NCBI GenBank assembly: GCA_023382335.1
Contig: JAMCPM010000014.1
Location: 1 to 64,000, forward strand
Origin: Actinomycetota bacterium
Lineage (GTDB): Bacteria; Actinomycetota; Thermoleophilia; BMS3ABIN01
Reading direction: 5' to 3'
Length of the DNA: 64,000 bases
Made by a program: the position numbers and the translations under genes. The notes beneath the pieces were generated by a model that saw only the letters and a program-made list of their open reading frames with translations, had not been told where the DNA came from and ran no database searches. Below are positions 29,449 through 50,715 of this stretch, piece by piece. Numbering within the stretch: the first letter of the stretch is position 1; each line of letters begins with the position of its first letter.

Positions 29449-30510
29449 TCAGGGCACCAGGTCTATCCTGCCGGTATCGTCTTCGGCTTCCATCACACCG
29501 ATCCGCGCTGCGATTATCGAGTCGGCGTCCCTCAAGGCCTGTTCCAGCTCATCTGCTTTTTCCTGCGGGCAGGAGATCAAAAGGCCTCCCGAGGTCTGAG
29601 CGTCTGCGAGCACCAGCCGTTCGGCCTGGGTTATACCCGGATCGAAATTGACGAAGGCGGAGACGAATTCCAGATTGTTCTTGCTGCCGGTCGGCACCGC
29701 GTTCAAGTCGGCGTCGATGAGATCCCTGGCGGCCTGCATGACCGGCACCGCCCGCGCGTGTACCCTGGCCCCGACGCCGCTGCCGCGGGTCATTTCCCCC
29801 AGATGGCCCAGCAGACCGTAACCGGTGACATCGGTGCAGGCGTTGACGCCCACTGACACCATTGCCAATGAGGCGTCGCGGTTGAGCTTGGCCATGACTT
29901 CGATAACCCGGGCGATCGCCGCCGGCGCGACAGTCCCACGTTTGATCCCAGTGGTCAATATCCCGATCCCCAGCGGTTTGGTCAGGAAGAGGACGTCGCC
30001 GACCTTTGCCGTGGAGTTACGAACGATGTCATCAGGATTGACGACCCCGGTCACCGCCAGGCCGTACTTGGGCTCCTTGTCGTCGATGGTGTGGCCGCCG
30101 ATGATGGACACTCCCGCCTCGCGGGCCTTGTCGCCGCCGCCGCGCATCATCTCCGTGAGTATTGTCAAAGGCATGCCGCGGCTGTGGAAGCCGACGACGT
30201 TCAAGGCAAACAAGGGCTTGGCGCCCATGGCGTAAACGTCGCTCAGTGCGTTGGCCACGGCGATGGCGCCGTAATCGTAAGGATCGTCGACGATGGGCGT
30301 GAAGTAATCCACAGTCTGGATGATTGCCATATCTTCGGCGATGCGGTAGACGGCGCAGTCGTCGCCGGTGTTGATCCCCACCAGAACATTGGGATCCTTG
30401 ACCGGCGGAAGTTCTTTTAGCACGGTTTGCAAGTCCGACGGACTTATCTTGCAGGCTCAGCCGGCGCCGTGCGCCAGCTGCGTCAGCCGGATCTCTTCAT
30501 TGGCTGCCAT
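29449..30510 (-). CDS. selD: Selenophosphate synthetase SelD, itself a selenoprotein (Sec18)
   Basis: Makes selenophosphate from selenide and ATP, the selenium donor for selenocysteine and selenouridine. The catalytic residue is encoded by an in-frame TGA (30457-30459): the frame reads LTQLAHGAG-U-ACKISPSDL, matching HGAGCGCKISP of E. coli SelD, where Cys17 is essential. The start is ATG 30510 with GGGAGG 5 bases upstream, giving 353 residues with Sec18. Stop-based gene calling would start at residue 30 or so and lose the active site. Further family segments are NTGDDCAVYRI, LSDVYAMGAKPLFALN, GGHTIDDKEPKYGLAVTG (only its start GGHTIDD cited as motif) and ADAQTSGGLL. A SECIS-like hairpin follows the TGA. 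The start overlaps the upstream class II aldolase gene by 14 bp. Confidence 0.95.
30428..30453 (-). promoter_or_regulatory. SECIS-like hairpin in selD
   Basis: Starting 3 bases after the TGA on the minus strand, TGCA-AGATA-AGTCC-GTC-GGACT-TGCA forms a two-part stem with a small apical loop containing G and U, about 17 bases past the TGA. Bacterial SECIS elements, which bind SelB, lie at this position. Confidence 0.65.
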
Positions 30511-31111
30511 CTTTCCTCCCGTCATGATGTGTCGATTCCGCTTGAGCTCGGTCGCCTGCGGCGGGCGGCCCGGCCAGCCGGGCAAGGTACGTGACTTCGC
30601 ATGATAATCCCAGGGCTGATGTGTAAGCCAGGGCCTCGTTGAGGGTGCGTCCAACCACATAGCAGCCATGCCCTCTGACCATGACAGCCACATGTGTCTG
30701 CAGCAGTTGGGGTATGCGCCCGTGCGCCTCTGAAGAAGTCACGACGGGGATTTCCCGCAGGAAGACCGAACCCTCCAGATCCTGTGGTGCAATAATATCG
30801 TTTGCGAGGGACAAAGCAACTGCATGGGCCGGGTGGGCGTGGATCACGGCCACGGCCGGGGTAAATTTGTAGATGAGCTGATGGAGCACGATATCCTTGG
30901 ATGCGTCCATGGCGATGTTGTCGGGCTCTTCCCGCAGGGGGATCTCGATGAGGTCGCCGGGTTGCAGCCGGCCGAGCATGGCGAAATGCGTGGATATGAT
31001 GATCTTGCCCTGGTTGCGGATGCTGATGTTGCCGCCATGTGACGTAGTCAGTCCCTGGCGGAACAGGTCTTCCCCGGTCTGCTGGAATTCTTCCAGGATT
31101 CGGTCCTGCAT
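30497..31111 (-). CDS. Class II aldolase/adducin-family protein
   Basis: Zinc-dependent aldolase or epimerase of the FucA/AraD type. The 204-residue product shows SHGGNISIR near residue 28, the zinc histidines in VIHAHPAHAV and the later RGHGCYVVG. ATG 31111 has GGGGAG 6 bases upstream. Candidate activities are L-fuculose-phosphate aldolase, methylthioribulose-1-phosphate dehydratase or a related reaction; sequence alone does not decide. The gene overlaps selD by 14 bp, which implies joint translation, although no functional link between them is obvious. Confidence 0.85.
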   Translation of the reverse strand: MQDRILEEFQQTGEDLFRQGLTTSHGGNISIRNQGKIIISTHFAMLGRLQPGDLIEIPLREEPDNIAMDASKDIVLHQLIYKFTPAVAVIHAHPAHAVALSLANDIIAPQDLEGSVFLREIPVVTSSEAHGRIPQLLQTHVAVMVRGHGCYVVGRTLNEALAYTSALGLSCEVTYLARLAGPPAAGDRAQAESTHHDGRKDGSQ

Positions 31112-31193
31112 GGAGTCTCCCCTGTTCGGCTGCCTTCGGTCGTGCGAGCCTTTGGCCTGATAGTACATTTCTGCGTTCGATACCCCGGAAGGG

Positions 31194-40211: not shown

Positions 40212-41456
40212 TTACCGAGGAATGCCCGACCTCGACTTCTGGTTCTTTTCTCCGGACGTGTTGCCATTGTTCCCGTTGAACTCGTCTTCTTCGTCATACA
40301 TTGGGATGTGTCCAAACAGGTGCCGCGGCAGGAATATCATTGTTGCGATTACAGTTGGTATGACGGCGCTGGCGATAACCACGGCCACCAGAAACGAATA
40401 CTGATCCTGGGAAATGATGTTGTTGCTATATCCATAAAGCGCAGCAATCGTGCCGAATGTCAGGCCGGTGGACATCAGGAGCGTATAGTACCAGCGTTCA
40501 TCACGGTGCCGGGTAAAGCGGCCTATGACCGGGTACAGGCCGAAGATCTTTGAGGCCACCTTGCCTCCCAGCAGCAGCACGAAGACAGCTGGCGCGCCTA
40601 TGAGCGCTGGAATCGATACCAGCGCTCCGGCCCGCAGAAAGTAAAAAGGGGTCAACATGCCCACCGTCAGGGTTCGCACCCGGCGCATCCACTGGTGATC
40701 CTCAGCAGCCGCACCCGCCAGCACCATCCCGGCCAGGTAGGCCGGGAGCACCGCTTCGCTGCCGGACCAGATGGCCAGGGCTCCCAAACCGAACAGAATC
40801 ATCAGCACCCACTTCGTACGTATTGCCGAAGTTCGATAAGCATACCGTCGCGTCAATAGCTTTGTTAGATAAGGGAGCACCGCCAGAACGAACAGGGTAA
40901 CGAGCACAAACACGAGTGTTTTGTAGGTGAAGGGGGCGAAAATAAGGCCCAGCGCGATTACCGTGCCCAGGTCATTAACGAAGCAGGCGCCCAGAATTCC
41001 TTTGCCAAAGCTGATCCTGTGAAGGCCGGTGTCAATCATTACCGCATAAACTACAGCCATCGAGGTAGTGGACAGGCAGACGCCCGCCAACCAGCTCGCC
41101 CGCGTGTCCCAGCCCAGCCCATACTTCGCCAGTGCGGTGCATCCTAAAAATGGGGCAAGAAAACCGACGAGACCGACGGCGCCCACCTCTTTCCACTTGC
41201 TGCGAAGCACGGCCGGCTCCAGTTCCGCGCCGGCCAGAAAGGTCAACAGTACGGCGCCCGAAGCAGCCAGGAATTTCAGCCAGCCAGCATTGCCTCCCAA
41301 AGCATCGATACCAAAATATTCTGCAGCGATTGCCGCAGCCACAACTCCGATACATATCTCTATCAGTGTCGCTGAAAGACGAAGGGCGGTGGCAACCATG
41401 GTAGCGAGAACAGCCAGACCAAACCACACAGCTGCGATTGCAAATGGATCACTCAC
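40212..41456 (-). CDS. CPA-type cation/proton antiporter (Kef/NhaS-like)
   Basis: Membrane antiporter with about twelve to thirteen helices and no TrkA-N or TrkA-C domain, so it is the transporter core only. The 414-residue product includes the discontinuous-helix segment AGAELEP and the ion-binding-type FVNDLGTVIALGL, whose Asn-Asp pair fits CPA2 electrogenic exchangers. GTG 41456 was chosen because GGGGAGG lies 6 bases upstream, whereas ATG 41471 has no such site. It follows the dynamin-like gene closely (stop at 41449, so the ends overlap by 8 bp). Antiporters of this kind are known among fluoride-riboswitch genes. The C-terminal tail is hydrophilic and acidic. Confidence 0.83.
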   Translation of the reverse strand: MSDPFAIAAVWFGLAVLATMVATALRLSATLIEICIGVVAAAIAAEYFGIDALGGNAGWLKFLAASGAVLLTFLAGAELEPAVLRSKWKEVGAVGLVGFLAPFLGCTALAKYGLGWDTRASWLAGVCLSTTSMAVVYAVMIDTGLHRISFGKGILGACFVNDLGTVIALGLIFAPFTYKTLVFVLVTLFVLAVLPYLTKLLTRRYAYRTSAIRTKWVLMILFGLGALAIWSGSEAVLPAYLAGMVLAGAAAEDHQWMRRVRTLTVGMLTPFYFLRAGALVSIPALIGAPAVFVLLLGGKVASKIFGLYPVIGRFTRHRDERWYYTLLMSTGLTFGTIAALYGYSNNIISQDQYSFLVAVVIASAVIPTVIATMIFLPRHLFGHIPMYDEEDEFNGNNGNTSGEKNQKSRSGIPR

Positions 41457-43239
41457 GACTTGCCTCCCCATGACTGGCCAGTATTTTTTCCTCTTTCAGT
41501 CCATCCAGTTCATGAAGGGCACTTTCAAGAATGCGAAGGCGTTGCCCCAGGTCAGCCTCTTTTTCCGAAGCTCCGTGTTCTCCCTCTTGTTTTACCCTCT
41601 CGGCCACGTCAAGAGCGCGGCGGATTCCGCCCAGGCTTGCCTCGACGGTTTCATTAAGCTGCTTCTCGAAATCCGTGACGGACTTCTCGATCCGGGCCAT
41701 GAAATCCTGGCGCAGCCGCCCGCAGTGCCTTTCAATCAATTCCTTCATCCTTTCTCGTGCATTCCTGAGGATGATTTTGTGGGCAAGCGGTCTCGGGAGC
41801 AGGAGGGTGGCCGATTCGGTGATATATTCGAGTGACACCTTGACGTCTTCCTCGATCTTGAAGGTGAAAGCTGATTCCTTGGCCAGCGATTCTTCTATCG
41901 TGAAGGGCTGCAAGTCGATTTCGAAGATGCTCGCGGACACACTGACAATATTTTTTATGATCCGGTTGGTTCTCGATATCAGCCGTTCGAGGATCGCCTC
42001 AAGCCGCGTCCGCAAAATGCCTTCCTCGCGGGACTGGAACTCGTCGAAGGCATCATGTATCCGCTCGTGCACAAACTGGTTGATATCGCGCACGAGGTCC
42101 CTTTTCCCAATCGGCTGGATGGATTCGTAATATTCGTCAATTGCCTTGACCAGGGCAGAAGTCTTCTCGGCTTTGAGGGCGTCAAGATCGGGAATAAGGA
42201 CGTCAGTCGCCATAGCGCCCGCTTCGGCCCGAGCCAGGTGATGGCTGTCCTGGCGCTCCTGCGCTATCTCTTGCTCGGTGGCCGCGAACCGGCCGATCTT
42301 GTCCTCAAGATCCTTTAGTGGCTCACCGAGCGACTTCTGCATAAGCCTTGCTGAAAAAGATTCCTGGGCGACTATATTGCGGATTTTGCTGGCGGCCGAC
42401 GCCAGGAGCACCCGGCCTTTTTCCTCGATGAGAAAGTTTTCAAGCATGGCTTCGAAAGCCACAAGGCCGCTTTCCTCGTACATGGCGCGGTTCCCGTCAA
42501 GCTTTCCCTCCAGCGCCTTTTTGGCCGAGAGCGGAAAAATGGTTATGTCCTCAAGACCGGCCTGCTTGCCAATTACTTCCCGGGTAAACTCGAGTGACTC
42601 AATCCGGTCGGCGGCGCTCACCGTGTCGATCTTGTTCTGGATGAAGAAAAGCCTGGTGGCAAATCCTCTCAGATCGTTTAGAAAGTGATACTCGGCGTCC
42701 GTGATCGGCGGATCGACGCTGACCAGGAAAATCGCTGCGTCGGCGTTGGGCAGGTAGCTGTAGGTCACGTCAGTGTTGTGACTGTGGATTGAGGCAACCC
42801 CCGGGGTATCGATCAGGCGAATATTGTTCTTGAGATAAAAGGAAGGATGGAAAATTTCCACGATTTTCACATCCTTCGTGTTCCTGGGGTTATTTTTTTC
42901 GGTGACGTACCGGGCCAAGTCCTCGCTGGAAATTTCTTCTTTGGTGCCATCGTTGAAAATCACGTTGATGCGCAGGGACTCACCGTACCGGATCTCGGTG
43001 ATGATGGATGTGACGGGGATGATCGCCGTGGGCAACAGATCATCTCCCAGCAGGGCGTTAATGAAGGTGCTCTTGCCCCGCTTGAACTGCCCCGCCACTA
43101 CCAGGCAGAACTCGTTTTCGTCCAGTCTTCTGGCGATAACCGAAAGAGCCTGGCGCGATTCCTCACTTTCGGCCGCCGCGGCGACCTTCGCGGGCAATTT
43201 CAGCAGTGTTTCCCTGATTTTTAAATAATTCTCTAGCAT
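41449..43239 (-). CDS. Dynamin-like GTPase, under a fluoride riboswitch
   Basis: Large GTPase of the bacterial dynamin-like family (596 residues), expected to remodel or protect membranes. The G domain is complete: G1 GQFKRGKS (50-57), G2 Thr in PVTSI (77), G3 DTPG (144-147) and G4 NKID (202-205). The remaining 330 residues are mostly charged helices, the usual dynamin stalk, with a hydrophobic segment near SATLLLPRPLAHKI that may act as membrane paddle. The start ATG 43239 lies only about 10 bases behind the riboswitch's T-run and has no visible ribosome-binding site. The gene is first in a transcript with the antiporter. No function in fluoride tolerance is established for this family, so that role is inferred from position. 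Confidence 0.85.
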   Translation of the reverse strand: MLENYLKIRETLLKLPAKVAAAAESEESRQALSVIARRLDENEFCLVVAGQFKRGKSTFINALLGDDLLPTAIIPVTSIITEIRYGESLRINVIFNDGTKEEISSEDLARYVTEKNNPRNTKDVKIVEIFHPSFYLKNNIRLIDTPGVASIHSHNTDVTYSYLPNADAAIFLVSVDPPITDAEYHFLNDLRGFATRLFFIQNKIDTVSAADRIESLEFTREVIGKQAGLEDITIFPLSAKKALEGKLDGNRAMYEESGLVAFEAMLENFLIEEKGRVLLASAASKIRNIVAQESFSARLMQKSLGEPLKDLEDKIGRFAATEQEIAQERQDSHHLARAEAGAMATDVLIPDLDALKAEKTSALVKAIDEYYESIQPIGKRDLVRDINQFVHERIHDAFDEFQSREEGILRTRLEAILERLISRTNRIIKNIVSVSASIFEIDLQPFTIEESLAKESAFTFKIEEDVKVSLEYITESATLLLPRPLAHKIILRNARERMKELIERHCGRLRQDFMARIEKSVTDFEKQLNETVEASLGGIRRALDVAERVKQEGEHGASEKEADLGQRLRILESALHELDGLKEEKILASHGEASRE

Positions 43240-43248
43240 GATGGCAAC

Positions 43249-43322
43249 AAAAAAGCTCCTGCAGTCAGACTACAGAAGCCATTAGCCCCAAGGGGCGCTT
43301 GAAGGCGAGCTTCATCGCCTAT
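43249..43322 (-). ncRNA. Fluoride riboswitch (crcB motif) with terminator, before the dynamin-like gene
   Basis: Read on the minus strand the element begins GGCGATGAAGCTCGCC, continues with a GCGCCCCTTGGGGC hairpin and then TAATGGCTTCTG, the conserved core order of the crcB motif. The 3' part GCTTCTGTAG pairs with CTGCAGGAGC (about ten pairs, two of them G-U) and is followed by six T (43249-43254): an intrinsic terminator whose 5' arm overlaps the aptamer. Fluoride binding should prevent termination and turn on the GTPase-antiporter genes. Confidence 0.9.
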
Positions 43323-43386
43323 ATTTATTTCATTCTACCCGAATTATAGCAATTATTATCTGCGCCGGTAAAGCCGGATCCGAGCT

Positions 43387-44567: not shown

Positions 44568-44646
44568 AAAAAAGCTCCCGCAAGCACTTGCCTGCAGAAG
44601 CCATCAGCCCCGGAGGGGGCGCTTTCGGCGAGCCTCATCGCCGTGT
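44568..44646 (-). ncRNA. Fluoride riboswitch (crcB motif) with terminator, before crcB
   Basis: On the minus strand the element reads GGCGATGAGGCTCGCC, AAAGCGCCCC, GGGGCTGATGGCTTCTGC, which follows the known Thermotoga petrophila fluoride aptamer nearly base by base. GCTTCTGCAGG then pairs with CTTGCGGGAGC, followed by six T (44568-44573), an intrinsic terminator overlapping the aptamer's 3' end. It controls crcB, the usual target. The two copies in this window share the core but differ in loops and terminator. Confidence 0.94.
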
Positions 44647-44693
44647 ATCAAATAAGGAAATTAGCAAATTACAGCGTTCTTTGCAAACAGGCG

Positions 44694-48423: not shown

Positions 48424-49080
48424 TCAGTCTGCCTTGGGCGGTGCAGCGTTCTTGCCCTCGCGCCCGGCGAACATCAGTGGCAGCTCGCGCGCGACTTCGG
48501 CGACCACAAGATAGATGTGGATAGCCGGCGTGATGATAAACAGCCACATCAGCCAGTAGTGGTAGGTGCGCATCGCCGCCAGCCCGCCGGCCCAGTAGGT
48601 GAAGGGCTCGAAGAACGACTGCGTCGGCGACCAGAGGCAGAGGCCGGTGAGCAGCGTCAACGGCATCAGGATGAACGCCCAGAACAGGTACGTCGACTTC
48701 TGCAGTGGGTTGAACTTGTAGACCGACGGGTAGGTCTTTTTGATGAACAGATAATACTTGATAGTGTCCCTGAACGTGCCTTCCCCCTCATGCCTCAGCG
48801 GGCTGAACCAGTGGAAGTCGCGGCGCTTGACGCGGCTTCCGGGGGGCGCCGAGCCGGCGCCGAAGAAGGCCCAGTAGATCCGGGTGATGATCGTCAGCAC
48901 GAAGACCAGCCAGGCGATGTTATGAACGGTCCTGGCGTAGCCCATGAAGCCGCTGAAAAACGGGCCGTAGATGTAGAAACCGGTGAAGATCAACAGCGCC
49001 AGCGACAGCAGGTGTATCCCGTGCATGACGATCGCCGGCCGCGGGTGCTCTTCCCTTGTCGGAGGTATTCTTCCTGACAT
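48424..49080 (-). CDS. hyaC: Hydrogenase cytochrome b subunit (HyaC-like)
   Basis: Dihaem cytochrome b that anchors the hydrogenase and passes electrons from the small subunit to quinone. The 218-residue product has four or five hydrophobic helices with histidines in HGIHLLSLALLIFTGFYIYG (His20 and His23), RTVHNIAW, YHYWLMW and TPAIHIYLV, as expected for haem ligation. ATG 49080 lies 6 bp after the true (TAG) stop of the large-subunit gene, with an AGGTAGG ribosome-binding site that overlaps that stop. This tight spacing supports read-through of the upstream TGA. Confidence 0.92.
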   Translation of the reverse strand: MSGRIPPTREEHPRPAIVMHGIHLLSLALLIFTGFYIYGPFFSGFMGYARTVHNIAWLVFVLTIITRIYWAFFGAGSAPPGSRVKRRDFHWFSPLRHEGEGTFRDTIKYYLFIKKTYPSVYKFNPLQKSTYLFWAFILMPLTLLTGLCLWSPTQSFFEPFTYWAGGLAAMRTYHYWLMWLFIITPAIHIYLVVAEVARELPLMFAGREGKNAAPPKAD

Positions 49081-49086
49081 GGCTGC

Positions 49087-50715
49087 CTACCTGACCTGGA
49101 ATTCTAGGACTTTGTTGGATTCCGGTTCAATCACGTGAACCGCGCAGGCCATTCATGGGTCGAATGTGTGAACGGTTCTGAGTATCTCCAGCGGTTTTGC
49201 TGGATCGACGACCGGCGTTCCCACCAGCGCCTCCTCGACCGGGCCGCGTTTGCCGCTGTCGTCACGCGGCGACAGGTTCCAGTTCGACGGCGGCACCGCC
49301 GCGTAGGTGTCGATCTTGCCGTCCTTGATCCGGGTGTAGTGGCAGAGGGCGCCGCGCGGCGCGTCCCAGCCTCCCTTGCCGGTGCCGTCCCTGCTGTAGT
49401 CGAGCTCGTTGTAGACGGTGGTGTCGCCACCGCCGATATTGGCCAGCAGGTCGTCGGCCCATCTCAGGGCGTTGTCGGCGTTGATCTTGGCCTTGAGGAC
49501 GCGTGCGGCCAGCCGGCCCAGGTTCGAGACCAGCACCATCGGGTCGCCGGCATGCCCGACGGCGGCCAGGGTGCTGTCCACCAGCGTCTTGGCTTCCGGC
49601 CTGCCGGAGAGATACGCGACCAGCATCTGCGCCAGCGGCCCGACCTCCATCGGCCGGTTCTGATCCCCGTAGCGGGTGGCCTGGGTCCAGTCATATTTTC
49701 CCTGTGGAAGGCCTTCGCCCTCGATGGGAGGCAGCTGCGTGAACTGGATCGGTTCCTGGCCGACGTCGAGCGGATGCTTGCCGGCGCCGACGTCATCACC
49801 GTAGTACGAGGTCTTGGTGAATTGCCTGGTCTGATCCGGATCGACCTTCTGCAGCTCCAGCTTGCCGTCGAAGATGCCGCCGCGCGGGAACAGCCGGTCG
49901 TAGGGGTCCTGGCTCTTCTCGTCGAGGACGCCCCAGGTGAGGAAGTTGCCCACACCCTGGCCGTAAGTCGCCAGGTCGAGGTAGAACGGCGCCACGGCCA
50001 GCAGGTCCGGCACCATGACGGTGTCGATGAAGTCCTTGACCTGGGCCATGTTCGATTTGTAGAACTCGATAGTCTCGATGCTGGGCATCTGGACAACGCC
50101 GCCCGGCACGTAGTTGTGGATCATGGGATAGCGGCCGCCCAGCATGGTGGCGGCGTCGTTGGCCAGCTGCTGGACCCCCAGCGCCTGCAGATAATGCGCC
50201 GTGACCTCAAGGTTCAGCTCCGGGGTCAACTTGTAGCCGGGATGGTCCCAGTACATGTTGGCGAACGGGCCAAGCTGGCCGGAATCGACCACAGCCTTGA
50301 CCTGGTCCTGCACCGCCTTGAGCCCCGGCGTCGCCGCCTTGGCGTTCAGGGCGTCGGGGACGTTGACGTAATCGAAGCCGTTCAGCTGATAGAACCAGAG
50401 GATATGGTCGTAGCCGATCTGGCATGCCTCCATCATGTTGCGAACCAGCCGGGCGCTGTCGCTCACCTTGTCAACGCCCAGCGCCGTTTCCACCGCTTTC
50501 AGGGAATTGAACGCGTGCGGTGTCGGGCAGACGCCGCAGATGCGCTGGGCGAACTGCCAGATTCCCTTGGGGTCGCGGTTCTTCATGAAGATCTCGAAGC
50601 CGCGGAAGAGCGTCGCCGTGTTCCAGGCATCGGTCACCTTGCCGTTCTCGACCACGCAGGTTATCCGCAGATGGCCTTCGATACGGGTGATCGGATCGAT
50701 AACTACCTTGGTCAT
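49087..50715 (-). CDS. hysA: [NiFeSe]-hydrogenase large subunit with selenocysteine (Sec521)
   Basis: Catalytic subunit of a membrane-bound uptake hydrogenase. The N-terminal nickel motif is RICGVCPTPH (Cys60, Cys63). The C-terminal motif is split by TGA (49153-49155): the frame reads TVHTFDP-U-MACAVH, i.e. DPU-x-x-C-x-x-H with Sec521, Cys524 and His527, followed by a 15-residue tail (VIEPESNKVLEFQVR) and TAG 49087-49089. Replacement of the terminal-motif cysteine by Sec defines [NiFeSe] hydrogenases, which are more oxygen-tolerant in recovery than plain [NiFe] ones. The tail would be removed by the maturation protease encoded downstream. A gene call that stops at the TGA loses the second pair of nickel ligands. 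The full product has 542 residues. The start is ATG 50715, directly behind the small-subunit stop. Confidence 0.96.
49123..49142 (-). promoter_or_regulatory. SECIS-like hairpin in the hydrogenase large-subunit gene
   Basis: Ten bases after the TGA, CGGTTCA-CGTGAT-TGAACCG forms a perfect 7-bp stem with a six-base loop containing G and U. It lies wholly in the read-through extension, where a bacterial SECIS for SelB binding is expected. Confidence 0.75.

Follow-up and report, generated by a model that had tools for sequence, protein, structure and literature searches.

The minus strand of the window, meaning the whole 64,000-nucleotide stretch of DNA that was analysed, carries between positions 30510 and 29449 a selD gene for a Sec-type selenide, water dikinase of 353 amino acids. 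The frame runs from an ATG at 30510 to a TGA stop codon at 29451-29449 and is uninterrupted except for a single in-frame TGA at 30459-30457, which corresponds to residue 18; with this TGA translated as selenocysteine (Sec, U), the residues around U18 are MAANEEIRLTQLAHGAG-U-ACKISP. Judged by its sequence, the frame is predicted to give a complete SelD when the TGA is read through. The product matches the curated family TIGR00476 over nearly its full length, scoring 385.9 bits where the cut-off is 125, and its best match among solved SelD proteins is 3u0o (selenide, water dikinase), with an E value of 1e-82 over residues 5-325. In the alignment with 3u0o, U18 lies opposite the cysteine of the catalytic loop HGAGCGCKISP, and both K21, which completes the U/C-x-x-K signature, and TDVTGYGLLGH, an instance of the TDVTGxGLLGH motif, are retained. 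The TGA also coincides with the catalytic cysteine position of E. coli SelD. A sequence-only reading of the window had placed a selenocysteine at exactly this catalytic position (HGAG-U-ACKISP), and its observation of a Sec-type SelD at 29449-30510 is confirmed.

Under the standard code, the longest open reading frame begins at TTG 30432 and encodes 327 amino acids, so that a plain ORF caller misses both the start and the active site, as the same reading had claimed; the gene model truncated in this way is now corrected. The fact that a standard-code caller reports this frame is what speaks for the TGA as a true stop, with a restart at TTG 30432 yielding a 327-residue SelD-like protein devoid of the active-site loop. 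Such an arrangement is highly improbable, since TTG 30432 has no Shine-Dalgarno sequence, whereas the strong GGGAGG that had been reported ahead of ATG 30510 is indeed present at 30520-30515 (minus strand), 4 nt from that start codon. In addition, the N-terminal part ahead of the TGA shows conservation at the protein level (HGAG and ACK both persist in 13 distinct sequences), no other stop codon ever takes the place of the TGA, and the genome possesses a Sec system. Upstream, a class II aldolase-type gene (30497-31168, minus strand) shares 14 nt with the beginning of selD. This gene adjoins selD, or lies at most about 1.2 kb upstream of it, in every lineage locus examined, and a convergent histidine kinase gene is found downstream of selD in most of them. 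The overlap suggests that the aldolase-type gene and selD share one transcript and are translationally coupled, an arrangement that need not mean shared function.

The alignment of Sec- and Cys-type SelD proposed earlier was carried out with 111 sequences, in all of which residue 18 is encoded by TGA (88 sequences) or by a cysteine codon (TGC in 17 and TGT in 6), other codons being absent. The selD loci that match best belong to metagenome-derived actinobacterial genomes that carry the labels Thermoleophilia, Gaiellales or Actinomycetes. The window's own lineage forms one clade, with an SH-aLRT value of 100 in a quick SelD tree computed with residue 18 masked, and within this lineage the TGA is present in 13/13 distinct sequences, the window counted, the other 12 having 68-92% identity to it. 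Across the phylum, about every second of the top SelD matches, counted by hand, has a single in-frame TGA. Because the TGA is kept in independently sequenced genomes, it is not a sequencing error. The genome being a draft of 23 contigs would be compatible with a sequencing or assembly error, or with a decaying selD, yet independent genomes with as little as 68% identity have the same TGA, and the frame is otherwise intact; the conservation of the TGA already refutes this explanation and leaves it with a negligible probability.

A hairpin follows the TGA. By numbering from the T of TGA, nucleotides 14-20 (UAAGUCC) pair with nucleotides 24-30 (GGACUUG), forming at 30446-30430 (minus strand) a stem of 7 pairs closed by a 3-nt GUC loop that starts 17 nt past the UGA. 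The model for bacterial SECIS elements (bSECIS) admits stems of 4-16 bp, loops of 3-9 nt and a spacing of 16-37 nt, and further asks for a G as the first or second nucleotide of the loop and a minimum free energy (MFE) of at most -7.5 kcal/mol (PMC13188914). With a stem of 7 bp, a loop of 3 nt opened by G and then U, a spacing of 17 nt and an MFE between -7.7 and -9.6 kcal/mol, varying with the length folded, the selD hairpin falls inside every limit of this consensus model. No SECIS family of Rfam was matched at either TGA of the window or in six related loci. Taken by itself, the window sequence has no unusual folding energy over nucleotides 4-33 (P 0.20), and it is therefore conservation that carries the argument.

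In the 13 lineage sequences, codons 16-27 rank first among 284 twelve-codon windows for synonymous conservation, with a value of 0.95 against a background of 0.65. These codons contain AGT, which elsewhere in the 13-sequence set accounts for 3 of 159 serine codons, and TTG, which accounts for 38 of 366 leucine codons. In a synonymous-recoding null, 89 of 91 pairs were observed against 34 ± 3.5 expected, a count reached in 0 of 2000 trials, although this null treats kin sequences as independent and its significance is inflated accordingly; the comparison of codon windows within the one gene, in which codons 16-27 rank first, is the fairer test, free of kinship inflation. This pattern of synonymous conservation indicates that the selD hairpin is constrained at the RNA level beyond the protein. 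The SECIS-like hairpin that had been suggested after the TGA is thereby borne out, both by the bSECIS limits and by the constraint on the RNA. In the same genome, the hairpins of the hydrogenase and fdhA TGAs carry an apical GU at nucleotides 22-24, close to the GU of selD at 21-22, so that three genes agree on a putative SelB docking point. Outside the hairpin, the codons GCC GGC directly before the TGA (30460-30465, minus strand) are also synonymously invariant across the lineage, possibly as an upstream context for Sec insertion.

The genome that contains the window is a draft of 2.45 Mb with an estimated completeness of 99%. A genome without a Sec insertion system had been named as the finding that would speak against a selenoprotein, and the opposite was found: SelA (576.8 bits), full-length SelB (352.9 bits) and tRNA-Sec, or selC (67.8 bits, gathering threshold 47), are all present, clustered within 4.4 kb on contig C16 (18008-22359). 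A single SelD lies above the cut-off in the genome, the next match, at 76.6 bits, being below it. The selenouridine synthase SelU was not found in the genome, which leaves Sec as the known destination of selenophosphate in this organism.

Besides SelD, the genome encodes at least two selenoproteins, the selenoproteome count being a lower bound as families were searched one by one. The first is the Sec-type [NiFe] hydrogenase large subunit of the window (49087-50715, minus strand; PF00374, 495.5 bits), with the motif FDP-U-MACAVH and its TGA at 49155-49153. The two TGAs are 18.7 kb apart, in agreement with the earlier statement that SelD and a Sec hydrogenase place two selenoproteins within 21 kb. 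The second is the formate dehydrogenase FdhA on contig C13 (ART-U-HAP), a third selenoprotein in addition to the two noted earlier. The hydrogenase, whose cytochrome b partner lies at 48424-49080, scores higher against the standard [NiFe] enzyme 1frf (411.5 bits) than against the solved [NiFeSe] enzyme 5jsu (282 bits), and its TGA and the hairpin GGTTCA-CGTGAT-TGAACC are kept in relatives with identities as low as about 50%, other actinobacterial families included. It may represent a Sec branch separate from the classical [NiFeSe] hydrogenases. Nothing specific to this class emerged from literature searches on Sec hydrogenases or selenocysteine.

Two further features of the genome were recorded. 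Two dsrA genes score above the curated cut-off (contigs C20:6179-8423 and C2:7980-10246; L168-L171), each adjoined by a weaker dsrA-family match that is probably dsrB, so that a dissimilatory metabolism of sulfite or sulfate is probable in the organism. The window also contains two fluoride riboswitches on the minus strand, at 43266-43328 and 44588-44651, the former directly ahead of a dynamin-family GTPase gene (41449-43239) that is followed by a Na+/H+ exchanger and an enolase; a dynamin-like gene under fluoride control, if true, would be unusual.

Given the frame, the conserved TGA, the hairpin and the Sec genes, it is almost certain that selD encodes a selenophosphate synthetase whose residue 18 is selenocysteine, its UGA decoded by means of the hairpin at nucleotides 14-30, and that the enzyme supplies its own selenium. 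Residue 18 would be the selenocysteine of a mobile N-terminal loop of SelD. SelB carrying Sec-tRNA(Sec) would bind the hairpin 14-30 nt from the UGA and, once bound, would place Sec at this codon with no termination. The finished SelD would convert selenide and ATP into selenophosphate, from which SelA would form Sec-tRNA(Sec), and SelD would hence provide the selenium for its own Sec as well as for that of the hydrogenase and the formate dehydrogenase. We infer Sec incorporation, the activity of SelD and the self-supply loop from the known pathway. As to the earlier proposal that SelD produces the very selenium donor from which it is itself made, the single SelD of the genome fits it, but the loop itself is deduced from what is known of the pathway. 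A single-copy SelD that needs Sec to make Sec makes it conceivable that near-cognate readthrough of the UGA, with Cys or Trp inserted, bootstraps the cycle with a little SelD. A relevant contribution of this kind is unlikely, given a dedicated conserved hairpin and a full SelB/tRNA-Sec apparatus, which point to Sec as the likely main product. No direct evidence against the Sec-containing SelD was encountered, and the interpretation first given to the locus is supported.

The position of the hairpin was compared across SelD genes. A distal hairpin at nucleotides 31-45, whose GGU occupies 36-38 and which forms at least 5 of six tested pairs, is present in 55 of 82 distinct Sec-type sequences and in 1 of 22 Cys-type sequences; its pair 33-43, found in the 82 Sec-type sequences as G-C in 24, C-G in 22 and T-A in 12, shows strong covariation. 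No case occurs in the clade of the window, whose members have 0-2 of 5 pairs and all carry the proximal hairpin, its loop being GUC or GUU. The proximal hairpin was also considered as the common SECIS of SelD and rejected, the distal one being commoner elsewhere, so that the claim is limited to this clade. Sequences that branch near the clade (L056, L057, L058 and L059) have the distal hairpin together with a proximal stem whose loop is without GU. We lean slightly towards a move of the selD SECIS in the clade, in which the distal GGU hairpin, a feature of most Sec-type SelD of other phyla, was lost while the proximal stem at nucleotides 16-28, kept by many relatives, gained a GUC loop and became the SelB-binding element. 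As the deep branches of the SelD tree are weakly supported, the direction of this change is likely rather than proven, and since the distal hairpin is also missing from several other Sec lineages, the turnover of the element is not unique to the clade. In another family of the same class, the Sec-type selD of L021 and L022 could fold into another hairpin, CCCCAA-GGAC-TTGGGG at nucleotides 18-33, a further sign of selD SECIS remodelling within the class. If the SECIS moved, the clade shows a recoding signal shifting within a coding sequence with Sec retained, and the contrasting sequences that the shift provides could serve as natural test cases for SelB recognition. No description of the SECIS position of this selD was found in the open literature searched.

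The two selenoproteins with the widest distribution in bacteria are FdhA and SelD, with SelD in second place, and among actinobacteria Rubrobacter has SelD as a selenoprotein (PMC1794560; PMC13188914). The present analysis extends the range of Sec-type SelD, and of Sec systems that serve several selenoproteins, to a little-studied actinobacterial lineage, known from metagenomes, that has a hydrogenase as well as genes for dissimilatory sulfite reductase. With the Cys-type SelD (as in E. coli; best solved match 3u0o), the product of the window's selD shares the catalytic lysine and the metal-site motifs, but that type has Cys where the window's SelD has Sec, and a Cys-type gene needs no SECIS. 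With the Sec-type SelD (TIGR00476, UxxK motif), it has in common the family, the position of Sec, the motif and a bSECIS after the UGA, and in these respects the selD of the window is an ordinary, correctly read member of an established textbook selenoprotein type. The sole difference from most Sec-type SelD sampled is that their hairpin lies at nucleotides 31-45 with a GGU loop, whereas that of the window lies at nucleotides 14-30 with a GUC loop, and this position of the SECIS is the one new detail.
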